From positions 50,405 to 114,404 of IMG/VR virus record IMGVR_UViG_3300026484_000308: DNA of 64,000 bases; one strand, 5' to 3'. Below, piece after piece: positions 12,666 through 53,301 of this stretch. The notes below the pieces were generated by a model. The model did no database searches. It had not been told where the DNA came from and saw only the letters and a list, made by a program, of their open reading frames with translations. Position numbers and translations under genes: made by a program. This stretch comes from a virus. Every line of letters begins with the position of its first letter. Positions within the stretch are counted from its first letter, which is position 1.

Positions 12666-13280
12666 TTACAAAATAATATTTACATAATTCATAATTAAAT
12701 TATGAATTTCATTTATTTCTAACGTAGCGTCGATTACTAGAATATTGTGTCCGGATTCTTTTAGTTTTTCTATTTCTTGTAAATACTTTTCTCGAACTTC
12801 AGTTAACTTTTCTAAATTTTCATATCTTTCTATATTTGTAAGATCATTTTTATTACGTTTATGAATTCTTTTTAAACTATGAATAGGTCCCATATCTAAA
12901 AAAATAGTAAGATTTGGTTTTATTAATTCCTCGGTATTCATCTGTTTAGAATTATAAACTTTGGAACTTAAAGAATATCTAACACTTATATAATGTTTTT
13001 TATCTTCATTAATAATTTTATAAATACCATTGGTATTATTCCAAGTTTGATAGATTCTATCAGTATGCATTAAATATGATAAAAATAATTCTTCATTTTG
13101 TTGATACATACTTGGATTAATTAATTCTTCTCTAATTACTTCTTGTAACTTACCTTTTCTTGTTGGTGCATAACCAAGATAAGAATTTGGTAAAGCTGCT
13201 TGTAAAAGCGCGGCTTGCGTATCTTTCCCACTCGCATCCAGGCCTTCCAGTACTATAAATTTTCCATTTTTTTCTAACAT
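12666..13280 (-). CDS. tmk: Thymidylate kinase
   Basis: 204 aa, the normal size for dTMP kinase, which phosphorylates dTMP to dTDP for DNA synthesis. A Walker A loop GLDASGKDTQ (residues 13-22) is followed by the phage/bacterial TMK pattern: TRKGKLQEVIREEL, HTDRIYQTW (DR motif), VRYSLSSKVYN in place of the usual DRY-SS-AYQ, and a Walker-B-like TIFLDMGP. A lid region with HKRNKNDLTNIERYE follows. The DRY motif has Val for Asp. The start overlaps the end of the nuclease gene by 7 bp and the dehydrogenase gene starts 9 bp downstream, so the three are probably co-expressed. It is the only nucleotide-metabolism gene in this otherwise structural window. Confidence 0.85.
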   Translation of the reverse strand: MLEKNGKFIVLEGLDASGKDTQAALLQAALPNSYLGYAPTRKGKLQEVIREELINPSMYQQNEELFLSYLMHTDRIYQTWNNTNGIYKIINEDKKHYISVRYSLSSKVYNSKQMNTEELIKPNLTIFLDMGPIHSLKRIHKRNKNDLTNIERYENLEKLTEVREKYLQEIEKLKESGHNILVIDATLEINEIHNLIMNYVNIIL

Positions 13281-14167
13281 AATTTTTCCTTTAAAATTGT
13301 TTTAATATTATTTATTTCTTTATATGAAAGTCGAATAAGATTTATATTATTATTTTCGCAGTACTTATTTTTTATAAAATCTCTTTTCTTAGTTTTTTCA
13401 AAGGCCTCTTTACCACCAAAATAACGATAAGCTTTAAAATGTTGTTCTCCGTCATATTCAATGATAGTATTTAAATCTGGTAAATAAAAATCAAAGGGTA
13501 ATGGTAAAATATTTTTACAATCATTAAATTTATATTCTTGTGTAAAATTAATATTATTTTCTTCTAAAAATTTTCTAATAGCTTTTTCACCTTTTGAACT
13601 TTTACATATTGGACAACCAATACCAGACCAATGTGAACTAGATACCTGCCAAAAACTACCATGCTTTGGGCAAATAATTTCTACTTTTTTATCTTTTCCA
13701 AAATATTTCACTTTATCATAATTATATAAATTACCATGAATTTTTTTAAATTTTTGTATTACTTCGGAATCAGTTTTTTTAAAATTACCACCGCATTTTG
13801 GACATCCAGTACCTTTTTTATGATCATTTGGTTTCTGGAAAAAACTTCCATGTTTCGAGCAAATTATTTCTACCTTGACCATAGATGTGGAATATTTAAC
13901 TTTTGAATAATCGTATCTATCCCCATGAACTTTTTTAAAATCTATTATAGTTTCGGCTCTTGATTTATTTCTATTTTTTGAACATTTTGGGCAACCACAA
14001 TTTTTCCAATGATCCGAAGGGTTTTGGAAAAAACTTCCATGTTTCGAGCAAATTATTTCTACTTTTTTAAAAGTACCCTTATAATTAACCTTCGAATAAT
14101 TGTATTTATTTCCATGAACTTTTTTAAAGCGTTCTAGAACTTCTTCTTGTGTTAATTTTTTGGCCAT
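13274..14167 (-). CDS. Homing-endonuclease-like protein: three zinc-binding repeats plus PD-(D/E)xK nuclease
   Basis: 297 aa. Three tandem modules of about 60 aa (roughly residues 6-64, 68-127, 129-190) each read F-K-x-H-G-x-x-Y-x-Y-x-K-V, then VEIICSKHGSFFQ, then GCPKC. The C-x2-H and C-x2-C pairs suggest a treble-clef or zinc-ribbon DNA-binding unit. The C-terminal about 100 residues form a Vsr-like nuclease: EKAIRKFLEENNI, PFDFYLPDLNTIIEYDGEQH (Asp, Glu and His active-site-like residues), then RDFIKNKYC. This layout is known for free-standing phage homing nucleases. It is preceded by a palindromic repeat block and overlaps tmk. The target site is unknown; one possibility is that it mobilises this three-gene group (inference). 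Confidence 0.7.
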   Translation of the reverse strand: MAKKLTQEEVLERFKKVHGNKYNYSKVNYKGTFKKVEIICSKHGSFFQNPSDHWKNCGCPKCSKNRNKSRAETIIDFKKVHGDRYDYSKVKYSTSMVKVEIICSKHGSFFQKPNDHKKGTGCPKCGGNFKKTDSEVIQKFKKIHGNLYNYDKVKYFGKDKKVEIICPKHGSFWQVSSSHWSGIGCPICKSSKGEKAIRKFLEENNINFTQEYKFNDCKNILPLPFDFYLPDLNTIIEYDGEQHFKAYRYFGGKEAFEKTKKRDFIKNKYCENNNINLIRLSYKEINNIKTILKEKLC

Positions 14168-16451: not shown

Positions 16452-17870
16452 TTAATTTTTCTTAGTTTCTATAAGTTCTTTTCCATTATCTTCGGCATCT
16501 TCTGCTTCCTTTGGATCTTCAACTTCTTTATCAACTTCAACTTCTTTATCAGTTTCAACTTCTTTATCAGCTTGTTCAATATCTTCTTTAGCTGCATCTT
16601 CCCCATCATGTAATTCTAATGAATCCATAACTTGATCATCTATATTAGCTTCGCCATCTGCTTCTATTTCTTCCTTAGCTTCTTCATCCGAAGGAATTAC
16701 TTCAGTAGCATCTTCGATATCGTCTTCGACACTTTGTTCGGCATCAACTTCGTTTGCCTCATCTTCAGCTGCCTCAGATTCATCATCTTTTAAAGCATCG
16801 CTATGATCACCTTTAAAATCTTCTGGTAATTCCCCATGATTTTCATCTTCGTCTGGAGTACCATCTTTATCTAAATCTTCTTTGACTTCAACTTTAGAAC
16901 AACCTGGAACATCTTCATCACCAGTAATAGAACATACTTTAGCAATCGCAGAATATTTTCCAGCATCGATATCATTATCTTCTCCAAGTTCTACATTTTT
17001 ATCAAATGTAGTACCAGAAAGTAAAGTAGTCAATGAATCAATTTTCTCATGTAGTTTATGGAGTAATTCTTCTGCGTTTCCTGGAATATCTTTATAATCC
17101 GGAGTCTGTGTATCTATAAAAGATTCTATTTTTTGTTGAGCCCCTTCTGGAAGCATAACATCCTTTAAATGGTCACCAAGAACATTATTAAAACCTAAAA
17201 CAGTTCCCATTTTAGCTGGATCAATTTCACCAACCTCTTCACCAAGACCTTTATCTACTGAAATTTTAATAATTTTTTTAACCGGTTCCATATTTTCTTC
17301 AAGTAATGTACCATTAAGTAGTTTAAGTCTAAAATTTTCTTCTAAAGAATTTTTAAATTTATTATCATAAATAGCAAATGCTTCTGATTCAGTTAAAGTA
17401 GTATCTAATGCTAAAGAAGTTAATCTGGGAGTAGTGTTAGTTTCTTTATAAAGATCAGCAGCAATTACTAAAGCTTCTTCAAGAATTCTATTATAAGTTT
17501 CTTTAGTTTCTTCGAATTTAAATCCTTCTTCAAGAGATTTTAAATAAGGAAGATCAATTCTAAATTTTTCTTTAAGTTTTTCTTCACTGTATTTATCAGT
17601 ACTTAAAAATGTTTTAGATTCTTCAATTTTTTGAAGTTTCTTAGCTTTATCAGCTGCACTAAAAATAAAATCTGGGTCAAATTTAGCTGATTTAGATTCT
17701 TCAAATTTTTGAACTTGAACAGATTCTTCTAAAACATTATTTTCTTTATCACCATCTTTAATTTTTTTAAGAGCGAGTCTAGAAGACTCCTCTATACTTT
17801 TACCGAAATTTAATAATTCATTTGAATTCAAATACGAATCCATATCTAAATTTAATTTTTTAGTTCTCAT
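16452..17870 (-). CDS. Acidic protein with Ca-binding-like loop (472 aa), possible prohead-core/internal protein
   Basis: The N-terminal 300 residues are helical and charged. The C-terminal third is extremely acidic, with many Asp/Glu/Ala and repeated EVETDKEVEVDKEVED-like units. At the junction is DLDKDGTPDEDENHG, a DxDxDGxxDxxE loop like those of EF-hand or thrombospondin type 3 calcium sites. Strong acidity and low complexity recall phage scaffolding or core proteins, but no family is recognised. It starts 16 bp after the 1031-aa gene and ends at a terminator. Role inferred, low certainty. Confidence 0.45.
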   Translation of the reverse strand: MRTKKLNLDMDSYLNSNELLNFGKSIEESSRLALKKIKDGDKENNVLEESVQVQKFEESKSAKFDPDFIFSAADKAKKLQKIEESKTFLSTDKYSEEKLKEKFRIDLPYLKSLEEGFKFEETKETYNRILEEALVIAADLYKETNTTPRLTSLALDTTLTESEAFAIYDNKFKNSLEENFRLKLLNGTLLEENMEPVKKIIKISVDKGLGEEVGEIDPAKMGTVLGFNNVLGDHLKDVMLPEGAQQKIESFIDTQTPDYKDIPGNAEELLHKLHEKIDSLTTLLSGTTFDKNVELGEDNDIDAGKYSAIAKVCSITGDEDVPGCSKVEVKEDLDKDGTPDEDENHGELPEDFKGDHSDALKDDESEAAEDEANEVDAEQSVEDDIEDATEVIPSDEEAKEEIEADGEANIDDQVMDSLELHDGEDAAKEDIEQADKEVETDKEVEVDKEVEDPKEAEDAEDNGKELIETKKN

Positions 17871-23582: not shown

Positions 23583-24002
23583 TTAATTTCCAAAATTAAC
23601 GATAAGGTTTCTCTTACTTAGAACTTCGATCTCATCTTTATTTTTTAAAACGATATCTGCTAACTGTTCTAGTTTATTCGTTAGGTCGTTTAATTTATCA
23701 TCTTTTTGTTGCTGTTCTCTTTCAAATTCAAAAACCTTTTCTCTTAATGAATCGTTATCAAATCGTAAATGATTTATTTGATCCTTTAGAATTTGAAATT
23801 TCTTTTCAATACTTCTAGAATCTAATTGATATTGAGATGAAGAATAATGATCAACGTGATCGAATTGAGGTACTTCTGGAATATTTGGTGATATCATATC
23901 ATAACTATTATCCAAACCATACGGATTTTGAATGGATATTGTATTATTTAAATTACTATCCATTGATCTAGATCTAAAACTAAATTTATTTTCGTTTGTC
24001 AT
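23583..24002 (-). CDS. Small coiled-coil protein with C-terminal hydrophobic tag (139 aa)
   Basis: I set the start at the ATG at 24002 (MTNENKFSFRSRSMDSNL), seven bases after AAAGGA. A longer version would need a TTG and would overlap the upstream gene. A disordered N-terminal half rich in Ser, Tyr and Asn is followed by a coiled coil (LKDQINHLRFDNDSLREKVF) and ends LSKRNLIVNFGN. The end resembles those of the next two upstream genes (RPLIAKFE, KDLTINFE), so the three form a tandem family. Confidence 0.55.
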   Translation of the reverse strand: MTNENKFSFRSRSMDSNLNNTISIQNPYGLDNSYDMISPNIPEVPQFDHVDHYSSSQYQLDSRSIEKKFQILKDQINHLRFDNDSLREKVFEFEREQQQKDDKLNDLTNKLEQLADIVLKNKDEIEVLSKRNLIVNFGN

Positions 24003-24012
24003 TTTATTTCCT

Positions 24013-24228
24013 TTATTCAAATTTTGCTATTAATGGTCGCTTTTCTAATTCATTTAATTTTTCTTCCAAATAATCATTTTTAGATATAAGTGTATCTATC
24101 CTAGTAAGTACTTTATTAAGTTGTTCTTCTAAAATACTAATTCTGGTTAAATGCTCAAAATTATTTGATTCAAGAACTCGAACTTGATTCTGTAACATTT
24201 CTTTTCCCGTTTCCAATAAGGTTGTCAT
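24013..24228 (-). CDS. Small coiled-coil protein with C-terminal hydrophobic tag (71 aa)
   Basis: Almost the whole protein is one coiled coil (LESNNFEHLTRISILEEQLN, VLTRIDTLISKNDYLEEKLN), ending ELEKRPLIAKFE. It is the minimal form of the three-gene family: coiled coil plus a short beta-like end. Such proteins often trimerise and hand a C-terminal strand to a partner, but that is inference. Fifteen bases separate it from the upstream gene. Confidence 0.5.
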   Translation of the reverse strand: MTTLLETGKEMLQNQVRVLESNNFEHLTRISILEEQLNKVLTRIDTLISKNDYLEEKLNELEKRPLIAKFE

Positions 24229-24243
24229 TTTATTTCCTTTAAA

Positions 24244-24675
24244 TTATTCAAAATTAATAGTTAAATCTTTTTTCTTTAATTCTTCAATCTCTTTTTCTAA
24301 TTTTTTTATATTAACATTAAGTATTTTTTTATCTTCTTTTAATTCACTTATATGATTTTGAAAAGTTTCCCGTTCTATTATACATACCGAATAACTAGTT
24401 AAAAATTCATGATTTTTACTAAATAAGGATTTATTAATATTTATATTATTTATTACTTTAAATACTTCCTCTAATGATAATTTTATATTACATGTCTCTA
24501 CTTTACCATTTATATTTTTATTATTAAAAAATTTTAATAAATCTGTATTATTTTTAACGCCATCTAAATTTTCAATTATTAATTTTTCAATTGCTATTGT
24601 ATAATCTGATATTGATTCGTCCTCACATATATCTAATAATCTATCTATTTCTTCTTGACTTAATATATCTGCCAT
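24244..24675 (-). CDS. Small coiled-coil protein with C-terminal hydrophobic tag (143 aa)
   Basis: A globular-looking N-terminal part (MADILSQEEIDRLLDICEDE, then IENLDGVKNNTDLLKFF) precedes a coiled coil (HISELKEDKKILNVNIKKLE) that ends ELKKKDLTINFE. MADILSQEEIDRLL resembles the short N-terminal CheC/FliY-binding-type peptide of flagellar FliM/FliN (LSQEEIDALL). It could therefore mimic a flagellar switch peptide, which is suggestive given the CheW-like gene 2 kb downstream, but it may be chance. First of the tandem triple. Confidence 0.5.
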   Translation of the reverse strand: MADILSQEEIDRLLDICEDESISDYTIAIEKLIIENLDGVKNNTDLLKFFNNKNINGKVETCNIKLSLEEVFKVINNININKSLFSKNHEFLTSYSVCIIERETFQNHISELKEDKKILNVNIKKLEKEIEELKKKDLTINFE

Positions 24676-25231: not shown

Positions 25232-26365
25232 TTAATTATGTTGTGCATTTAAAACTTCTCTAAGAATTATTAAATCGGTTGTTAACCCTATATTATAAAA
25301 AGCCGATTGAACCGCCGATCCAAATACAGTTGCTTGATTAGTTCTCTTATCATTAATATACTTTTGAGCCTCTATAGCTATTGGGACCGATATGGCCATT
25401 GCCCAAATAGTTCTTGCTTGTAAAGAAGCTTTAGATGTTTCGGTATCTGTATCTTGTCCAACCGGTGGGGTCATACTTTTAAAAGTACTTTTACTTTCTT
25501 TTTCCAATAAGTCGGTATCTGCTGGATCAGCATAAAAAACTATATTTAAAGCCCCAAGAACTTTTACTGCGATATAAATTTCGTCCATAAAACCTTCCAT
25601 AGCATCTAATAAAGTATTTAAATCCCTTAATCCCACTTCAAGTTTAGTTTTATACTTATTTATGGCATTAATAAAAGGTTCCGCATCTGCCTCATAATTA
25701 AGTTGACCTACATCCGGAACAGTATAATTATTATAATAAGCGTATGAAAGATTGGTTTTGGTATTACAATCTAAATTTGTGGCATCTTGATAATTATTAT
25801 AATTAGCATATATTTGATAATTATCAAATTGTTTTATAAAATCATTGTAAATGCTATCAAAGTACGCCATGATATTTCCATATTTAATAGCTTCCTGAAT
25901 TTCTTGGACTTGTCTAAACATTTCCATAAAATCACATTCAAATTTAGATACTTGTTTGGCCATACTATAATTTTGTAAAAAGTTCCCAACCCCTTTATCT
26001 AAGGTTGCTATTAATTTAGCAAAAACTCCATCTACTTTACCAATGGTTGGATCATATACGCCACGAGGATTTTCCTCTCCATTTAAACAATCGGTACATC
26101 TTAAAATTTTTTCGGTTAATTTTTCTACTAATGGTCCAAGAGGTTCCTCATTAAAATCTCTTTTAATAATATCCCAAAAGGTTTCGCTATAATCACAATC
26201 AGTATTTTCTATATAATCTAGAGCATCTATTCTTCCTAACATATAATTATCTATATTTTTTAAAAATTCGGTATATTTTTTAAAATGTAAGATAACGATC
26301 CAGTCAGTATTTTGATTAAAATATAATCTGTCGTCTTTATAATCTGGGCTCATGAAGTTTATCAT
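25232..26365 (-). CDS. Unknown structural protein (377 aa)
   Basis: A helical protein with several cysteines (NTDCDYSETF, ILRCTDCLNGEENPRG) and a Tyr/Asn-rich middle (YANYNNYQDATNLDC, YAYYNNYTVPDVG). A weakly hydrophobic helix lies near residues 313-330 (IWAMAISVPIAIEAQKYI). CxxC and scattered Cys could bind metal. ATG at 26365 with AAGGA seven bases upstream; a second Met at residue 5 is possible. It directly follows the PAAR gene. Not recognised. Confidence 0.5.
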   Translation of the reverse strand: MINFMSPDYKDDRLYFNQNTDWIVILHFKKYTEFLKNIDNYMLGRIDALDYIENTDCDYSETFWDIIKRDFNEEPLGPLVEKLTEKILRCTDCLNGEENPRGVYDPTIGKVDGVFAKLIATLDKGVGNFLQNYSMAKQVSKFECDFMEMFRQVQEIQEAIKYGNIMAYFDSIYNDFIKQFDNYQIYANYNNYQDATNLDCNTKTNLSYAYYNNYTVPDVGQLNYEADAEPFINAINKYKTKLEVGLRDLNTLLDAMEGFMDEIYIAVKVLGALNIVFYADPADTDLLEKESKSTFKSMTPPVGQDTDTETSKASLQARTIWAMAISVPIAIEAQKYINDKRTNQATVFGSAVQSAFYNIGLTTDLIILREVLNAQHN

Positions 26366-26407: not shown

Positions 26408-26716
26408 TTACATGCTCATATTCATCGGATCGCCTGATACAATCATCGCTTGTACTATTGGACCAACTACTGTAGCACCTAATGTACTCGTTGGCATACC
26501 ACTATTTAAATCCATTGGTACTCCAGTCATAATCATGGCTGAACCACATGGAAATATAACAGTATCCCCCATCCGAGCGGTTGGCATACCAGTATTAAGG
26601 CTCATTGGATCGCCGGATACAACTATTCCAGTGGCTGGTTGAGGACCTGGTCCAGCTGGTGGAGGAGGCCAAAAACAAGTACCAAAAGCAGTATCTCCAA
26701 TTCGGGTAACTACCAT
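26408..26716 (-). CDS. PAAR-repeat tail spike tip protein
   Basis: A 102-aa single-domain PAAR protein. It shows the family's repeated pattern of Gly-Asp-Thr, Cys and P-x-A-R turns: RIGDTAFGTCFWPPPP, TGIVVSGDPMSLNTGMPTAR, MGDTVIFPCGSAMIMTGVP, then a third PMDLNSGMPTS repeat. The Cys and His-type ligands normally bind one metal ion at the tip of a cone. PAAR proteins cap the gp5/VgrG spike of contractile systems, and here the partner would be the OB-fold spike at 48524. It has no effector extension. It sits between the CheW-like gene and the 377-aa gene, far from the spike gene. Confidence 0.85.
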   Translation of the reverse strand: MVVTRIGDTAFGTCFWPPPPAGPGPQPATGIVVSGDPMSLNTGMPTARMGDTVIFPCGSAMIMTGVPMDLNSGMPTSTLGATVVGPIVQAMIVSGDPMNMSM

Positions 26717-26736: not shown

Positions 26737-27147
26737 TTATATATCTAGTAATATAACTAATTTATTTTCTATTTCCGATATTTTTATTAAATTTTTAAAA
26801 AATTTATTTTTCGGTTTTGGAATTTTTATTTTATTATCTGAAATTTCAAATACTCTATATATTTTATGTATTGGTATTAAAATTTTTCCATATTTTTTAG
26901 TTTTAATTAACATAAGAATTTTTGCATGTTCTATTTCTATATTTTTAGAAGTCAGTCCAATTAATTTATTTAAATTAAAAACTGGAAAAATCGTATTCCG
27001 AATAATACCAAAACCATAACTCGGAGAATTTAATTCACCCGTTTTTGTAATTTTTATATCCTGAGTTCTCATAAATTCTATTATATTTTCCGCTGGAAAA
27101 GCAAATATTTCATCCGAATTTGGTAATTCAAAAACTGCTATTTTCAT
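26737..27147 (-). CDS. CheW-like chemotaxis adaptor domain protein
   Basis: 136 aa, the size of one CheW domain. The order of motifs follows CheW: MKIAVFELPNSDEIFAFPAE (first strands), ENIIEFMR (where CheW has V-EV), YGFGIIRNTIFPVFNLNKLI (CheW: G-INLRG-ILPVIDL), then HAKILMLIKTKKYGKILIPI with HKIYRVFEIS (CheW: iiv--vG-lVD-V--V). It ends IENKLVILLDI, like CheW's RL-ILLDI. The conserved Arg after N is present; the preceding Gly-Val-I-N-L is IIRN here. CheW couples chemoreceptors to the CheA kinase in the cytoplasm. This gene starts 8 bp after a fibre gene and precedes PAAR, so it is transcribed with virion genes. Host chemotaxis interference or a structural re-use of the fold are both possible. 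Confidence 0.65.
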   Translation of the reverse strand: MKIAVFELPNSDEIFAFPAENIIEFMRTQDIKITKTGELNSPSYGFGIIRNTIFPVFNLNKLIGLTSKNIEIEHAKILMLIKTKKYGKILIPIHKIYRVFEISDNKIKIPKPKNKFFKNLIKISEIENKLVILLDI

Positions 27148-27155
27148 ATTAATCC

Positions 27156-29294
27156 TTAATATTGAAATAATATTCCTCGGTCATTGTAAATTCCACCAAC
27201 ATTTTTATAATAATTAAGAACTGGATAAAAAGATTCAAAAATTCCATTTATAATAATATCCTCTTGATATGTATCATAAAGAACTATTGGACCACATAGA
27301 GTATCGAAAGGTTTTATATATCCTTTTTTACTGAATGAATACTCCGCGTAAAAACTATTTAATTGAAATCTTTTATTTATTGCGTCTAAATTAGTCTCAT
27401 CTAAATTCATAACTTCGTTAATTTTTCTAGTACTACTTGTACTTAAAAATTCATATTCCGAAGCGGCCGATAAATTTTTATAATGTATTGTTGTATCAAA
27501 CGTCTGTTTATTAAAATCATATCTTAATGTTAATTGATACCAGTTACCTGGAACAAAGTTTACAAAAATTTCAGAATGATAACCATGAAAATCAATATTT
27601 AAAGTCATATCTCTTTCATTATAATATATACAATTATTATTAATTGGATCGGATATTAAAACCTGTCTTGAAACATCATAATATGAATTTCTAAAACTTG
27701 TATTCATAAAAGCATTTCTTTTAAAGAAAAGAATTAAAGTAAAACTTTCATTAGTGAATTTATTCTTACAAAACATATCGTCTATTATAACATGGTTCGG
27801 AAAAGTATAATTACCTGATTTTCTAGTTTCTAAATACCAATCTTTTCCTCTCATTGATAACGGTTTACCTAATGATTTATAAGGATAAACTTTATTATAA
27901 ACGATTCTAGTTTCTTCTTTGGATTTATTAAAAAAATCATAATATGCTAAAGCTCCATATAAATCTGGAAAATAGTTTTGACCAAAGGTTATATTATTAA
28001 TATCTATTCGATCTTCTTGTAGATGAACATCGTATATCTTACCACAGAATTGTTTTAACCCACTTTTATCCATACCTAAATAATATAATCCCGTTTCAGT
28101 CGTACTGGATTCTTCATCTGTATAAGTATCGGTTCCATAAAATCTTTTTAATTCTAAAGTATGGTAATTATAATTTCTAGTATAAACCATAGTATAAATA
28201 ACTTCTGGAAGTATTTTAGCATCTGGAATATCAGTAATATTAATTTCAAGTTTCTTTTTCATTGAATCTGAAATAGTTCCATCTAAATTTGAATCGACAG
28301 CTGAGCCTAAATATTGCGTAGTATTATCTACTATACTTTGACCATCAATGTATTTATCAAAATTTAGTACTTCTAATTGACCATTATTAATTTGAATAAT
28401 TAAATTTCTATCTAAATTTATTTGAAGCAATGGTATTCCATAAGTTGGTAAAGAATTTTTTAATAAATCAGTTACGTGATTATTTAATGCTTCTGTGGAA
28501 GCATCTGCTACATTTACTCCAGTTTTTTCTTCGATAATATTTAATTGATTTTGAACCACTTTAGATATACCATCTTGAATTAAATTAGTATTATATTCTT
28601 CCATAGTGCTTGCACCAAGTTTTAATTTCTTCGTTTCCGTTTGAACTATATTTTTAAGTTCCGAATTATCTGGTAAATTACATAATGGTTCAGAAATAGT
28701 TGGTTCTATATTATTTCCTGGATTAATTTTAGGTAATGCATTTAAAAAAGTTGCCTTTAAAGTTTCCTCTATTCCAGTCGCAGATTTACATATTTTAGTA
28801 TTATCAGATAAATCCATTGTAACAGTTTCTATAATTTCAGCATCCATATTTTCTATATTAATTGTTGTAGTATTTGCTTCCGAAAGAGCTTCTTTATCTT
28901 CTTCTGAAAGTTCTGGACAATCAGGTAAAGTACTTGGATCGTCTATACCATTATTTATCATATCTAAAGCATCGTTTATATCTGATTCAGCTGTATCTAA
29001 ACTTTCTTTAGATACGACTCTTTGAATTGAATCTAAAAGAACTAAATCACTTAATGTTCCATCGTAACCATAATTATTTAATAACATTGATCCAAGATTA
29101 TTTAAATCTAAAGTTTTATTATTTATAATTAAACCATCATCTTCATAATACGCCTGATTTGAAACTTCAAATGTAATACTTATACTAAATTTACTTTTAT
29201 TTTTAAAAGTTTTAAATTGAGCTCCAAGGCCATTATAATCCATAATATTATTTACAGTTGGTGCTAATTCAAATATATTTTCTGGTACTAACAT
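27156..29294 (-). CDS. Virion protein with C-terminal concanavalin/LamG-like domain (712 aa)
   Basis: Begins MLVPENIFELAPTVNNIMDY. The first half is helical with acidic linkers (LPDCPELSEEDKEALSEANT). The C-terminal 300 residues look like a jelly-roll lectin: NHVIIDDMFCKNKFTNESFT, LILFFKRNAFM, then FVPGNWYQLTLRYDFNKQTF and GIFESFYPVLNYYKNVGG. NWY-L followed by a D-strand is typical of ConA/LamG folds that bind glycans. It is the first gene after a terminator, repeat block C and a conserved leader, so it heads an operon. Probably a receptor-binding or decoration protein (inference). Confidence 0.5.
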   Translation of the reverse strand: MLVPENIFELAPTVNNIMDYNGLGAQFKTFKNKSKFSISITFEVSNQAYYEDDGLIINNKTLDLNNLGSMLLNNYGYDGTLSDLVLLDSIQRVVSKESLDTAESDINDALDMINNGIDDPSTLPDCPELSEEDKEALSEANTTTINIENMDAEIIETVTMDLSDNTKICKSATGIEETLKATFLNALPKINPGNNIEPTISEPLCNLPDNSELKNIVQTETKKLKLGASTMEEYNTNLIQDGISKVVQNQLNIIEEKTGVNVADASTEALNNHVTDLLKNSLPTYGIPLLQINLDRNLIIQINNGQLEVLNFDKYIDGQSIVDNTTQYLGSAVDSNLDGTISDSMKKKLEINITDIPDAKILPEVIYTMVYTRNYNYHTLELKRFYGTDTYTDEESSTTETGLYYLGMDKSGLKQFCGKIYDVHLQEDRIDINNITFGQNYFPDLYGALAYYDFFNKSKEETRIVYNKVYPYKSLGKPLSMRGKDWYLETRKSGNYTFPNHVIIDDMFCKNKFTNESFTLILFFKRNAFMNTSFRNSYYDVSRQVLISDPINNNCIYYNERDMTLNIDFHGYHSEIFVNFVPGNWYQLTLRYDFNKQTFDTTIHYKNLSAASEYEFLSTSSTRKINEVMNLDETNLDAINKRFQLNSFYAEYSFSKKGYIKPFDTLCGPIVLYDTYQEDIIINGIFESFYPVLNYYKNVGGIYNDRGILFQY

Positions 29295-29367: not shown

Positions 29368-29459
29368 CTATAGTTAACTATCTGTACACTCACTACAGAT
29401 AGTTAACTATTGATACCATCAACTAAAGAGACAAATGTATATAGATAACTATAGTTATC
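29368..29459. repeat. Intergenic palindromic repeat block C
   Basis: Contains CTATAGTTAACTATCTG, CAGATAGTTAACTATTGATA and ATATAGATAACTATAG. The segment with AACTAAAGAGACAAATGTAT is the reverse complement of a segment in block E (50060-50090), showing the module occurs in both orientations. Confidence 0.75.
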
Positions 29460-29480
29460 CTGTTTTAAAATATTTTTTAA

Positions 29481-29523
29481 CGACAAGAATATACCTTAAT
29501 AGAGAAATTCTCTATTAAGGTAT
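29481..29523 (-). terminator. Intrinsic terminator after fibre-assembly gene
   Basis: A 15-bp perfect stem (29491-29505 with 29509-29523) with a 3-nt loop. It is followed on the minus strand by ATTCTTGTCGTTAAAAAATA, the TGTC motif. The stop of the 206-aa gene is 7 bp upstream. Confidence 0.75.
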
Positions 29524-29529
29524 TAAATA

Positions 29530-30150
29530 TTAATTCCAAGATATTAATTCTACATCTTCCTTATTAACACATACTTCTACATCTTTCAATAATTTTTGAT
29601 ATTTTCCCAAAGCACTGGATTCCATAATTTTATAATCCGAAGCTTTTTCTAAAATTTTAGTTATTAATTCATCCTTGGTTTCGTCAAGATCTCTTGATAC
29701 TAATAAATTATCAATAAATGGAGTTTTTACATTATTATCTATTATATAATTATTTGCTTCGGTTTCTTGATAAATCCAAGATTCTCTTTCGTTAACCGGA
29801 TAAATAATTCTCGAATTTTCGTAATCCATTCTAAGTTCGATTATTTTATTTTCTTTAATTTGATTTAATGTTAAATTTCCTTCTTGACCTTCAGGTTGAA
29901 CCCAATTAAAAGTAAGATCATGTAGGTAAGATAATTGTTCATCGGTGAGTGGTCTAGTTTCGTTATTAACGTTAGTGAAAAATTTAGTATTTAAATCACT
30001 GTCGTCATATTCTAAATATATATAATCTTCCGATATATCTGGAGGAGTATTTTTTCCATACACTCCATTTGGATATAAATCATTTTCTATGTAAATATTA
30101 TTTACCTCATCGTTTAAATATTCACCATAATTCCATACTATTAATTTCAT
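29530..30150 (-). CDS. Tail fibre assembly protein (DUF4376-like)
   Basis: 206 aa. The N-terminal part is a small acidic beta domain (MKLIVWNYGEYLNDEVNNIY). The C-terminal part carries the pattern known from fibre-assembly/DUF4376 proteins: a helix, then IIYPVNERESWIYQETEAN, then TPFIDNLLVSRDLDETKDEL and a closing helix. Such proteins chaperone trimerisation of the distal fibre, often encoded directly after the adhesin. Here the glycine-rich adhesin gene lies immediately upstream (10-bp gap), matching that order. Role is family knowledge plus context. Confidence 0.65.
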   Translation of the reverse strand: MKLIVWNYGEYLNDEVNNIYIENDLYPNGVYGKNTPPDISEDYIYLEYDDSDLNTKFFTNVNNETRPLTDEQLSYLHDLTFNWVQPEGQEGNLTLNQIKENKIIELRMDYENSRIIYPVNERESWIYQETEANNYIIDNNVKTPFIDNLLVSRDLDETKDELITKILEKASDYKIMESSALGKYQKLLKDVEVCVNKEDVELISWN

Positions 30151-30160
30151 TTAATTTCCT

Positions 30161-30859
30161 TTAAAATATTATTTTTACTAATCCGTTACCACCACGGCCG
30201 GTACTCACATTAGTATAAGCATAAGCGTAAAAACCTATACCTCCACCACCACTACCATAACCACCATTACTACCAAAACCATAACAAGCTCCACCATTAC
30301 CACCATTACTATATCCAGAAGATATACCACCATATCCATAATGGTAGGAATATTTTGCTCTAATGCCGTCTTTACTACTAGTATAACAACCATTTCTAGA
30401 ACCACCATTACCATAACCACCAGAACCAGAACCACCACTAGCGCTGTATCCACCGGCAGAAGTTGTTCCACCGGCTCCACCATTTGACCAAGTATTGGAA
30501 ATAGAGTTACCACCAGCACCAATAGAAATAACTAAAGATTGACCATCACTATAATTAATGGTCTTTGTAACTATTGTACCTGCGGTACCACCAGTAGCGG
30601 TAGTTTGTTGACCCGAACCACCACCACCTGCTCCAAGTAAACATATGGTTACATCGGTATTAGCTGGAAAATCTTTTCCAGCTATTAAAGTTTTAGAAGT
30701 TGTTACTATGATAGGAGAAGTAAATGCTGATGGAGGAGGTGGTATATATATTTCCCAAACCTTTATTTTATTAGCATATAGTTTATTCATTTCTTTACCA
30801 TTAGCTATTAATTTTCCACCGTTTTCTGGTATAGTTATACCAAATATTTCTAAACCCAT
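30161..30859 (-). CDS. Glycine-rich tail fibre tip / adhesin (232 aa)
   Basis: The N-terminal about 45 residues are an attachment segment (MGLEIFGITIPENGGKLIAN, then IYIPPPPSAFTSP). The rest is a phage glycine-rich domain: TVTICLLGAGGGGSG-type start (here TDVTICLLGAGGGGSG), many GGxGG turns, and the characteristic end GRGGNGLVKIIF. This domain forms polyglycine-II helix sandwiches in several phage adhesins and shows host specificity through its loops. The gene lies between a 91-aa fibre gene and the fibre-assembly protein. Glycine runs and repeats make it prone to recombination. Confidence 0.75.
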   Translation of the reverse strand: MGLEIFGITIPENGGKLIANGKEMNKLYANKIKVWEIYIPPPPSAFTSPIIVTTSKTLIAGKDFPANTDVTICLLGAGGGGSGQQTTATGGTAGTIVTKTINYSDGQSLVISIGAGGNSISNTWSNGGAGGTTSAGGYSASGGSGSGGYGNGGSRNGCYTSSKDGIRAKYSYHYGYGGISSGYSNGGNGGACYGFGSNGGYGSGGGGIGFYAYAYTNVSTGRGGNGLVKIIF

Positions 30860-31255: not shown

Positions 31256-33340
31256 TTAAATTATACCATTTCGAATATCTTTTATAAGTTTTGGATATTT
31301 ATAATAAAATTTAGATTTTGTTTTATTATTAATACTTAACATTGTCATATATTTTTCATTATTATTATTAATAGTGTTATTACTACCATTTGAGAAAATA
31401 CTTGAAAATTTAATATTCGCTAATACATTATTATCTCTAATAATATCGTTTGTTAATATCGATAATTTTCTATAATCTGAAATTTGTAAAGGTATATTTA
31501 TATACAAAGTTCTTTGATATACAATTGGACTAATAATCATAGTCTTTAAAGTATCTCCATCTTTCATTAATATTTTGCTATCGTACCCGCTATAATAAGT
31601 AATATTTGTATCTGTTCCATCATATGTAAATTCTCCTATTACTGTATTATTATGTTGTATATATCCAAAAATATTTTCAGTTAATGATTGAGAATAATCG
31701 ATTAACATATCTATTATAAAAGGATTTGATTTTAATTCAAAAGTACTTGGATAATCTGTTCCAATTGGATCGTAGTAATGTATAATTTCTGGAACATTTA
31801 TACCATAAGTATAACTTCTGTTAATTATAGAACCATTTTTTAATTCCACCATTATATTAATAGTGTTGTATCCTGTTGTTACCGTTTCTCCTGGAAAATT
31901 ACTTGGGGTAAAAGAAGGAGTTTCTGTAATATTAATTTTAGATTCGCTTCTACCAGCGTAAATATCTTCCGAATCGGTAAGATTATTATATAATGGATGA
32001 TCTCCGTAATTGGTTCTTAAGAATCCCACATTAACGGAAGTTCTATCATAATTACCAGTAAAGTAAGCTCCAAAATTAGTAATTAATTTATTAGCTGTAC
32101 AAAAGAAAGCCCCCGATTTATATGGAAAATCACTTGCCTCGGTAGAGCTAGTATAATTACCACCATGATCGGTTATAATAAATATTCCATTACCAGCTTC
32201 TCTAAATAAAAGAAGATTTGTAACAGCATTATCAGTAATTCTAGGAGTGGTTAAATATTTTGAACTCATAAATAAAACACCACAATAATCATTTAGCTCA
32301 GTTAAAGAAGGATTTAATAAACCATCGCTATAACTAGAACTCGTTTTATAAGTTAAAGTATATCCCATAATTTTAGCAACCCCAGCGAAACTAGTTCTAA
32401 AATCACTTGTTCCAGTTTCATTAATATTATAACTTTCCCCAGTGTTTGCATCACCAAGTACCAAAATATTTTTATTGCCTTGTGATACTTTATCGGTATT
32501 TGATATAAAATCCATAGCATTTGCTAAGTACCTAAAGGAAGCGTTTAAATCGGAAAAAACTTTCCAAGAGGTATTATATCGATTATTATAAAATTTTGGG
32601 AAACCTCCATCAAACAATACATTTCCTTTACCATCTTGAACGGTTGCTATAAAAGGATTAGCTGGACTTAAATTATCGTAAGCGATGTATTTAGCTAAAG
32701 TTGGTGTTTCATTAACAGCTGATAAAACATTAATTACATCAGTAGAAAAATCAAAATATACATCTTGTTTCGTTGGGTAAATACCAGGAGGAACCGTAGG
32801 ATTTAAATAATCATTAATTGTTACTATTTTGGTAGTACTTTTAATACTATACGGAAGTGTTCCAATATTTATATATTTCTTACTATAATCACTTGAAATT
32901 ATTTTAATTTTGTCTATGTTGGTTTTAGATGTTATTTTAATACTTAAATTTTTAAAATCATTGATATTATCCATAACTAACCCATCGGTACAACAAGTAT
33001 CCCATCTAAAGGTTCCTGTACAAACTCCAGTACTTGAATTAAAACTTGCTTCACCTTGATCATCCTGTACTACTAAAGAGGAATTCTTTGGTAAACCACT
33101 GATAGTAAAAGTAATATCTCCAGTCGTATTATCTTTGTATTGACTAGCAATTGCATGAATAGAAATTTTACCAGTACTTAAATCTTTATAAAAATATAAA
33201 GTAAGGCATCTGGTTTCCTGCCACACTGGAGCGGCAGATGCTTCAAAAGTGGTATTATAACCATAATATGTTTTTGCATCTACTGTTCCGGTAAAGGATA
33301 AGGCTTCTTTGCCGTCTATATAATATTTTTGTATTTCCAT
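31256..33340 (-). CDS. Large fibre/surface protein with alpha/beta middle domain (694 aa)
   Basis: The N-terminal third is beta-rich (YYIDGKEALSFTGTVDAKTY; SLVVQDDQGEASFNSSTG). The middle (about residues 285-400) looks alpha/beta: NKNILVLGDANTGESY, LLNPSLTELNDYCGVLFMSS, then NLLLFREAGNGIFIITDHGG. This strand-loop-helix order resembles glutamine-amidotransferase/ThuA-like folds, although no nucleophile Cys-elbow is obvious. The C-terminus is again beta-rich. Situated between two fibres carrying the MADTLSTIG anchor. Likely an adhesin or decoration protein; enzymatic activity is possible but unproven. Confidence 0.45.
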   Translation of the reverse strand: MEIQKYYIDGKEALSFTGTVDAKTYYGYNTTFEASAAPVWQETRCLTLYFYKDLSTGKISIHAIASQYKDNTTGDITFTISGLPKNSSLVVQDDQGEASFNSSTGVCTGTFRWDTCCTDGLVMDNINDFKNLSIKITSKTNIDKIKIISSDYSKKYINIGTLPYSIKSTTKIVTINDYLNPTVPPGIYPTKQDVYFDFSTDVINVLSAVNETPTLAKYIAYDNLSPANPFIATVQDGKGNVLFDGGFPKFYNNRYNTSWKVFSDLNASFRYLANAMDFISNTDKVSQGNKNILVLGDANTGESYNINETGTSDFRTSFAGVAKIMGYTLTYKTSSSYSDGLLNPSLTELNDYCGVLFMSSKYLTTPRITDNAVTNLLLFREAGNGIFIITDHGGNYTSSTEASDFPYKSGAFFCTANKLITNFGAYFTGNYDRTSVNVGFLRTNYGDHPLYNNLTDSEDIYAGRSESKINITETPSFTPSNFPGETVTTGYNTINIMVELKNGSIINRSYTYGINVPEIIHYYDPIGTDYPSTFELKSNPFIIDMLIDYSQSLTENIFGYIQHNNTVIGEFTYDGTDTNITYYSGYDSKILMKDGDTLKTMIISPIVYQRTLYINIPLQISDYRKLSILTNDIIRDNNVLANIKFSSIFSNGSNNTINNNNEKYMTMLSINNKTKSKFYYKYPKLIKDIRNGII

Positions 33341-51240: not shown

Positions 51241-51266
51241 TTCAATAATCCAAGAGGATTATTGAA
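51241..51266 (-). other. Hairpin at sheath stop codon, between sheath and tube genes
   Basis: An 11-bp perfect stem (51241-51251 with 51256-51266) with a 4-nt loop; the sheath stop codon lies in the stem. No T run follows, so it is more likely a stability or processing hairpin than a terminator. Confidence 0.6.
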
Positions 51267-53301
51267 CTTGAATTGGAACACTAATTGTTTCAATTGTTCC
51301 AACTGGGTTAATAGTAATACTAACTACCAAGTGGTTTTCTTCTTCGATGAAATATACTTTAATTTTAATATCTTGGAAAATACCATCTTTAAGGTTGTCT
51401 GCTGAAATTCTATAACGATCCATATATCTAGAAACTATATTCGTAATTTCGGAAATATTTGAACCAAGGGCTTTAACCTGAATAAAATCTTTAAGAAGTT
51501 TTGGGATATCTTTTCTCATTCTATGAATAGGTTTAATAATATTAATTCTTGATAATTTAGAAGCTTTTTTATAAGCGCTAAGTTGATCAATTTCATACGT
51601 TCCGTCAGTTTCTTCAATTATCGTATTAACTTGCATATTTCTAAGAGTTTCGATACCTGCAGAAGTAATAGTATAAGATAATTTTACAGAACTTTCTAGT
51701 AAAGCACCTTTATTAATATTTGCTGGTGGTTCAGTAATACTATATTCAGAATCTATTTTAAGATTAATTAACATTGCCATATAACTATGTGGAATAGTAA
51801 TATAAGATCCAGAACCTTCATCAAAGTGTTCATCATTACATTGACCACTATAAATTAAAGTATTAAATGAATTAACATAATAATCTTGAGAACGTTTAGT
51901 AGCATCTTCTTCAACCGAATTACTGTAACCAAGAGAGGTAATAGGAATAGTAAATCCAATTTCATCGGCTAAATTAACAATACTTGTCATAACATCAAAA
52001 TCATTTGTCCAATCAGGAATATAATCAAAATCATATCTAGGATACATAACTTCTCTAATTAGTGGATCACCATCAAAAAATTGAAGTAATAGTTGTTTAG
52101 CATTTGGAGCTTCTATTGAACCAGGACCTTGCATATTAAGAACATTATCTATAATAACATTTTCTCCATCAGAACCATTTACTAATTTAATAGGGTTATT
52201 AATAAGAGCGTTATATACATCGTAACGCATAAAATTAATTACTTCTGTGGCAAGAGTTTCATTTTCATCGATAAATAATTTATAGAAGGCCTTTTCTCCA
52301 TTAATATTTAATGAAAGAGTTCCTTCGGTATTTCCATAATAAGCTGTAGTATTAATTTGAGAATCATTTACAGTAATACTATATTTTTTAGTAACGACTG
52401 TACCATTAGCATCTGTTTGAATAAGTTGAAGAATTTCTTCTTCTAATCCTTCTAGTTGAGTAGCTTTAATACTTAACCCTTCGTCTTTATTAACATAAAA
52501 TTCGAAGTTAACTCCAGTAGTTTGATCTTTAAGAATTACTTTACGGCCCTGTTCTTCAATTAGATTACTTAAACCCATATATTTATAAAGATCTGGTAAT
52601 TTATATTCATTTGTACTAATTTCAATGAATTCGTTATTCATTGTAAATTTTTTATCTACGAATAATTCTTTACCTGTATTCATATTAAGAATTGGAACAC
52701 CAGTTTCTGGATCTCTATCAATTAGCGAAACTAGGATATCAGAAGCTCTAAGAACTGGACCTTTAGAAGTATTTTCATAAATGCTTGCATTTAAGAAGTT
52801 AAATTTATAATCTAAATCACCTTCATCATTAGCATATAACTTTTCGAAGTTAACTGCTGGAGCAAATACAATACTTAAATCATTATAACCAAGACCACGA
52901 TCTTTAGCTAAAATTTTAATAATGTTATCTAAACCATTAATTTTTAAATTGTTATCAGTAAGAATTTTTTTATCTGTAGTAGTAATTGCTCCAAATTTAT
53001 AATCTTCTGTAAGAATTACATTTGCATAAGTAGCGTCGTTAGCCACCAAACGTTTCCAAAGTACTTTATTAGTACGAGTTAGAGCACCTTTAACATATTT
53101 AATACCTAAACCAAATTTCTTTATATTTTCCAAACCAAGTTTAGCAGTTACCTGCTTTACATCATTAAACATAAATAAATCTTCGGTACCGTATTTACTA
53201 AAACCTGCTATTAGTACTGATCTACCAGATGCCACATTTGTTGCCAAGTAAGAATTATCAATTAAACTAGTTGTAATTCCTGGAATATTATATGTTGCCA
53301 T
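51259..53301 (-). CDS. Tail sheath protein (T4 gp18-like)
   Basis: 680 aa. The start is typical of sheaths: YNIPGITTSLIDNSYLATN, then SVLIAGFSKYGTED and the FMFNDVKQVTAKLG stretch (arm and first core strand). A central variable region follows. The conserved C-terminal assembly domain ends YKKASKLSRINIIKPIHRMR, DFIQVKALGSNISEITNIV, then YRISADNLKDGIFQDIKIKV and VSITINPVGTIETISVPIQV. The protein contracts around the tube to drive DNA injection. Its large size is close to gp18 (about 660 aa). Followed by the tube gene. Confidence 0.88.
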   Translation of the reverse strand: MATYNIPGITTSLIDNSYLATNVASGRSVLIAGFSKYGTEDLFMFNDVKQVTAKLGLENIKKFGLGIKYVKGALTRTNKVLWKRLVANDATYANVILTEDYKFGAITTTDKKILTDNNLKINGLDNIIKILAKDRGLGYNDLSIVFAPAVNFEKLYANDEGDLDYKFNFLNASIYENTSKGPVLRASDILVSLIDRDPETGVPILNMNTGKELFVDKKFTMNNEFIEISTNEYKLPDLYKYMGLSNLIEEQGRKVILKDQTTGVNFEFYVNKDEGLSIKATQLEGLEEEILQLIQTDANGTVVTKKYSITVNDSQINTTAYYGNTEGTLSLNINGEKAFYKLFIDENETLATEVINFMRYDVYNALINNPIKLVNGSDGENVIIDNVLNMQGPGSIEAPNAKQLLLQFFDGDPLIREVMYPRYDFDYIPDWTNDFDVMTSIVNLADEIGFTIPITSLGYSNSVEEDATKRSQDYYVNSFNTLIYSGQCNDEHFDEGSGSYITIPHSYMAMLINLKIDSEYSITEPPANINKGALLESSVKLSYTITSAGIETLRNMQVNTIIEETDGTYEIDQLSAYKKASKLSRINIIKPIHRMRKDIPKLLKDFIQVKALGSNISEITNIVSRYMDRYRISADNLKDGIFQDIKIKVYFIEEENHLVVSITINPVGTIETISVPIQVQ

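Follow-up and report, generated by a model that had tools for sequence, protein, structure and literature searches.

What would a gene resembling a bacterial chemotaxis protein do among the virion genes of a phage? The question is raised by an open reading frame (ORF) at positions 26737 to 27147 (minus strand) of the 64,000-nucleotide stretch of DNA analyzed here (the window), which is contained in a 114,404-bp IMG/VR record (IMGVR_UViG_3300026484_000308; GC content, 27%). Judging from the sequence comparisons below, we consider it fairly probable that this CheW-like gene belongs to a small accessory set by which a contractile-tailed phage, with a host inferred to lie in the Campylobacterota, alters host chemotaxis.

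The phage and its CheW-like gene

The record contains a tail sheath gene (51259 to 53301, minus strand; PHROG 23, E value of 4.7e-10) and thus belongs to a phage with a contractile tail. The phage also encodes six tRNAs and a virion protein (PHROG 11065) common to jumbo phages, including Salicola phage SCTP-2 and Pseudomonas phages PA1C and PhiPA3. Its nearest relative found, G001 (80.8 kb), has a sheath with 86% identity; a second relative, G002 (36.6 kb; sheath identity, 75%), is a fragment that ends short of the CheW locus. Between window positions 16452 and 63817, the majority of the larger genes have G001 orthologs (46 to 98% identity). Those without one include the CheW-like gene, a pair of genes at 24013 to 24675, and fiber-region genes at 29530 to 30859 and 31256 to 33340. 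A repeat family (KYDYSKVNY...), possibly homing endonucleases, has three members, one in the window (13274 to 14167) and two at L007:10762-11652 and L007:16384-17289, with copies in G001 at 43 to 64% identity.

The CheW-like ORF starts with ATG, has an AAGGA ribosome site, and encodes 136 residues. The original prediction of a single CheW-like domain held up, including in the profile search it had set as a check: Pfam CheW (PF01584) matched at 36 bits (E value of 6.6e-9; profile positions 9 to 130 of 138), above the curated cutoff of 23.5 bits, and a genome search with this profile gave the same match. The top four matches in a PDB sequence search were CheW chains (E values of 8e-5 to 2e-4). 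A profile built from nine Campylobacterota CheW/CheV proteins scored the ORF at 20.8 bits, compared with a maximum of 8.9 bits over 5,000 shuffles of its own sequence and 7.9 bits for the next best ORF; among the 115 ORFs in the record, it was the sole one with a good match. A single-sequence profile comparison gave a probability of 10.6% (E value of 0.003), and a single-sequence AF2 model, made with no alignment, was unusable (pLDDT of 39.5) and gave no confirmation of the fold. The predicted order of strands and helices is compatible with a double five-stranded beta-barrel, a compatibility that we do not count as evidence.

An alignment with eight CheW or CheV domains from hosts shows that the phage protein retains all five invariant positions, F6, E24, G45, R50, and P55. 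The last three form the conserved G-x(4)-R-x(4)-P core, the Arg62 region of the Escherichia coli protein. The NLRG motif reads IIRN, and the C-terminal helix, which is frequent in CheW but does not strictly define it, is missing; the sequence finishes with the last strand (...LVILLDI), whereas host proteins run about 10 or more residues further. By sequence, then, the product is a CheW-family protein. It resembles PF01584 members in its near full-length domain match and its retention of F, E, G, R, and P, and it differs from them in being phage encoded, in lacking the C-terminal helix, and in having IIRN for NLRG.

No relatives were retrieved with the protein's own patterns from 50,697 phage records, IMG/VR, or genome contigs, nor did a host CheW profile find viral relatives in IMG/VR. 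The other virus records tested, including G001 and, among cultured Campylobacter phages, CPt10, contain no CheW. Seven records of the phage collection matched host CheW, but these were rejected, the unannotated fecal fragments having the look of bacterial DNA; two of the seven, 254-kb "Acinetobacter phage MD-2021a" records with an annotated cheW, also resemble bacterial DNA. A convincing second phage CheW was not found, and the gene is a one-off. When 397 Campylobacterota genomes were sampled, just one matched the phage protein at an E value of 1e-4, through a CheV-like protein with 31% identity. Because CheW occurs in one virus record and host genomes yielded a single match at this identity, the phage protein may have left its original role.

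CheW lies 8 bp from the preceding gene, which encodes a 712-residue virion-region protein (27156 to 29294, minus strand), and 20 bp from the following gene for a PAAR-like spike-tip protein (26408 to 26716, minus strand). The original prediction placed CheW between a lectin-like fiber gene and the PAAR spike tip in one transcription unit. The order and the common strand were borne out; the Pfam PAAR_motif match falls under its cutoff (18.8 versus 27 bits), and "lectin-like fiber" is unproven, since searches of Pfam and PHROG with the 712-residue protein gave no match. In G001, the ortholog of this protein (73% identity) is followed directly by PAAR (73%) and then by the ortholog (75%) of a conserved 377-residue protein, which in the window (25232 to 26365, minus strand) separates PAAR from the FliM-mimic genes described below. 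No CheW gene is present between the 712-residue ortholog and PAAR in G001 or elsewhere in that record. This direct junction argues that CheW is an accessory insertion, not a core tail part. The genes around CheW all share the strand of the virion genes, which suggests that they are expressed late.

The original prediction had also allowed that the CheW-type double barrel might be reused as a structural tail part, here between the fiber and the PAAR tip. A gene located among virion genes, on their strand and 20 bp upstream of PAAR, would suit such a part. We nevertheless regard this reading as improbable: the relative with 73% identical fiber and PAAR orthologs has nothing between them, the G..R..P motif is kept, no other convincing CheW-bearing phage was found, and a purely structural role would leave the nearby FliM mimic without a reason.

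A FliM-type peptide encoded near CheW

About 2 kb from CheW, the gene at 24244 to 24675 (minus strand) encodes a 143-residue protein with a coiled-coil-like C-terminal stretch. Its N terminus, MADILSQEEIDRLLDICEDE, is identical at 17 of 20 positions to the Campylobacterota FliM N terminus, MADILSQEEIDALLDVVEDE. The first 16 residues (24628 to 24675, minus strand) comprise the motif LSQEEIDRLL and its surroundings, in agreement with the published consensus LSQxEIDxLL, which at the FliM N terminus is the CheY-binding motif (PMC5677366, PMC9126983). The rest of the protein had no Pfam FliM match at E values up to 1. Because the FliM middle domain (PF02154) is missing, we classify the product, by its sequence, as a mimic of the FliM peptide and not as a FliM. 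It shares with FliM/FliY the sequence of the CheY-P-binding peptide and its extreme N-terminal position; it differs in carrying that peptide on a phage coiled-coil-like body with neither the middle nor the C-terminal FliM domain.

G001 has no ortholog of the mimic. The neighboring gene (24013 to 24228, minus strand), which encodes a 71-residue coiled-coil protein with a similar C terminus (...NFE and ...KFE in the two proteins), also has no counterpart in the syntenic stretch of G001. Relative to G001, both CheW and the FliM mimic are therefore inserted in an otherwise conserved block of virion genes. Window positions 23583 to 24675 encode three adjoining small coiled-coil-like proteins with similar C termini (LTINFE, LIAKFE, and LIVNFGN), of which G001 has one (LTVNFGN).

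The peptide also bears on the host. In a genome scan with the pattern MAD[IF]LSQ[DE]EIDxLLD[IV], the matches listed came from Sulfurimonas, Sulfuricurvum, Arcobacter, Sulfurospirillum, and other Campylobacterota, with three of those listed titled only "bacterium." On the basis of these matches and the low GC content, the host phylum of the window phage is likely Campylobacterota.

The CheW-like gene need not act against chemotaxis. Its product could function in coupling, maintaining or strengthening the receptor array and letting an infected cell continue to navigate. In its normal coupling form, CheW has a single domain, as here, and the invariant G..R..P motif is kept. Set against this are the missing C-terminal helix, the change of NLRG to IIRN, the strong divergence from host CheW, and a partner gene whose product imitates the CheY-P docking peptide but has no motor portion, a combination that suggests sequestration. 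We consider such a pro-chemotaxis role unlikely, while granting it some chance.

FliM-type peptides in other phages

When tied to a start codon, the strict form of the motif matched four IMG/VR contigs, every match opening a small ORF; the estimated number of chance matches across the collection is approximately 0.001. A looser motif matched 13 stretches, of which 11 were true ORF starts; the matches in L185 and L186 were rejected because a stop is met at once. The peptide opens a 114-residue protein in a 290-kb phage (G003), a 154-residue protein followed by a FliM-domain ORF in G004 and G006, and a 168-residue protein in a 146-kb phage (L190; IMGVR_UViG_3300026488_000015). On the 89.9-kb contig L192 (IMGVR_UViG_3300005200_000008), the motif is found on a full-length FliM. 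The ORF adjoining the 154-residue protein in G004 and G006 (L131:4965-5840 and L133:7065-7940) encodes a 291-residue FliM fragment (PF02154, 47.9 bits) with LSQEEVTALL at its N terminus. By eye, we also identified a fliM-fliN-fliG-like switch cassette on the viral contig L192 (5960 to 8539), flanked by tail-like genes, TROVE-like genes, and genes for DNA methyltransferases; the host in this case is possibly a spirochete.

Cultured Campylobacter phages carry the peptide as well, and reference phages of this kind were among the 11 ORF starts matched by the looser motif. The CPt10 protein matched 37 records of the phage collection, 36 of them named Campylobacter phages. Carriers include the Firehammervirus members CP220, CPt10, CP20, CP21, IBB_35, and WX1 and the Fletchervirus members NCTC12673, F370, CP81, and others, and in all of these Campylobacter phages the protein is annotated as hypothetical. 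CP220 gp071 (YP_009169205), CPt10 gp077, IBB_35 AEF56767, and NCTC12673 gp149 (AEA86491) are, like the window mimic, small and begin with the same peptide; they differ in their bodies, which show no recognizable homology to the body of the window mimic. The hosts of most phages with a FliM-type peptide are probably Campylobacterota.

Between CP220 and NCTC12673, 13 of the first 15 residues are identical, compared with 35 of the remaining 105 (Fisher P = 1e-4), which indicates that, at the sequence level, the N-terminal peptide is the most strongly constrained part of the mimic. The local alignment score between the mimic bodies of the window and G003 was reached by 32 of 1,000 shuffles, and sequence comparison did not demonstrate homology among the bodies from the window, G003, and the Campylobacter phages. 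This pattern fits a short linear motif that was captured repeatedly or converged on. No relative was found to carry CheW and a FliM mimic together.

This recurrence bears on whether host genes were simply captured by chance and are now functionless and decaying. CheW is confined to the one record, and the mimic gene is frameshifted in some Fletchervirus genomes (e.g., F352), both of which would agree with decay. On the other hand, the reading frames in question are open and have ribosome sites, and several lineages share the FliM peptide, which is the best-conserved part of its protein; we thus think chance capture improbable as well. In F352 (L160:953-1030), a C run that follows approximately codon 20 of the mimic gene differs by one base, which leads to a free 25-residue peptide, a possible case of phase variation or decay.

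The mimic gene of CP220, CPt10, and IBB_35 is, as in the window, close to spike genes: a VgrG/lysozyme spike gene comes two genes downstream of it, and PAAR comes four genes downstream. Together with the 20 bp between PAAR and CheW in the window, this placement raises the possibility that both proteins, the CheW-like one and the mimic, enter the cell along with the tail spike, like type VI effectors linked to PAAR or VgrG, and act at once on entry. However, NCTC12673 and G003 have no annotated or matching spike gene close to the mimic gene, a delivery signal was not identified, and adjacency may reflect late expression only. Spike delivery is possible but is not favored here; we rate it as quite unlikely.

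Proposed effects on host steering

Phages that require motile hosts are well known. In contrast, a literature search retrieved no relevant report on phage chemotaxis genes, on FliM or CheY mimicry, or on phage proteins that copy docking sites of the chemotaxis pathway, and the genome papers of CP220, CP21, and IBB_35 mention neither FliM nor chemotaxis.

Further signaling genes occur in these phages. Besides its FliM-type peptide, G003 encodes a complete 124-residue CheY (85 bits; DDSSTMR, TDINMP, TEGGK, and NYIVKPF), which matched 53 records of the phage collection, mainly unannotated fragments. The window's record encodes a 222-residue GGDEF protein outside the window (record positions 29428 to 30096; L008:9428-10096), with 49.1 bits to PF00990 (cutoff of 23.8; profile positions 2 to 87 of 161) and an intact RIGGDEF motif; the related records have no counterpart of this protein, and visual inspection of it showed no RxxD inhibitory site. 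Receptor (MCPsignal, PF00015) and receiver (Response_reg) domains are absent from the window's record, and a complete chemotaxis pathway, for which receptor or CheY genes were sought, was not found there. In G001 (L167:1315-3306), a weak receiver-domain protein adjoins an apparent membrane histidine kinase.

The original prediction also proposed that a phage CheW could redirect the chemotaxis of the host or act as a competitor of its CheW. That proposal gains strength from the FliM-type peptide gene 2 kb away, from the GGDEF gene, and from the peptide in other phages. Because the CheY docking peptide is also present, unannotated, in well-known Campylobacter phages, phages that carry it probably interfere with host steering.

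Under the favored reading, in which the accessory genes alter host chemotaxis, the CheW-like protein, lacking the C-terminal helix, would occupy the places of CheW or CheV at receptor tips, and the kinase CheA would be uncoupled or reset. The FliM mimic would sequester CheY-P as a decoy and leave the motor in its default counterclockwise, nonreversing mode. Default rotation in H. pylori is counterclockwise, and cells without CheY rotate only in this direction and show no reversals (PMC7834020); on this basis, a free FliM N-terminal peptide would be expected to leave the motor with less CheY-P and to suppress reversals. In other species, the isolated FliM peptide binds with modest affinity (27 µM as quoted; PMC9126983), so a decoy would have to be abundant or multivalent, and the coiled-coil-like tail could provide multivalency. 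Counted against the favored reading are the restriction of CheW to one virus record, the unusable structural model and low profile-comparison probability, the failure to find a relative that combines CheW with a FliM mimic, and the fact that the close relative G001 has neither.

Work on NCTC12673 provides context. Plaquing of this phage requires motA and motB, while flagella are not required for adsorption, and its authors tied the motA/motB dependence to oxidative stress (PMC8540345). Given that interpretation, and because gp149 is unchanged in the escape mutant MutC, we treat this result as background only. The same phage encodes FlaGrab (Gp047), which acts on flagella and has host effects beyond adsorption (PMC7099621, PMC8540345). 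Like the window mimic and CheW in their proposed roles, FlaGrab is a phage protein directed at the host flagellar system; it differs in binding flagellar glycans from outside and in not being a chemotaxis mimic.

More tentatively, Campylobacterota phages, including both main genera of cultured Campylobacter phages, might run a dedicated anti-chemotaxis program by molecular mimicry, with FliM N-terminal peptides as CheY-P decoys in several lineages, CheW, CheY, or GGDEF proteins added in some, and motors locked in a nonreversing state during infection. If so, a widespread "hypothetical" protein of much-studied Campylobacter phages would gain a testable function, and phages would be a source of natural chemotaxis inhibitors. 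It would also raise the question of what a virus gains from a nonreversing host: dispersal of infected cells, exclusion of other phages or superinfection, or energy saving.

Finally, the C termini of some small ORFs in the peptide-carrying phages share features of their own. At approximately 181000 to 239500 of G003 (e.g., L130:392-10690), about 20 unrelated small ORFs, the FliM mimic included, end in [YFHS]PE plus one to four residues (e.g., YPELWV, FPELWV, and HPEYKI). This ending was present in 24 of 320 ORFs, compared with 0.66 expected from internal positions, and by its sequence it looks like a sorting or packaging tag. L190 likewise has tandem small ORFs with a common C-terminal PHLFL-type ending, its FliM mimic (...EKPHLGL) among them.
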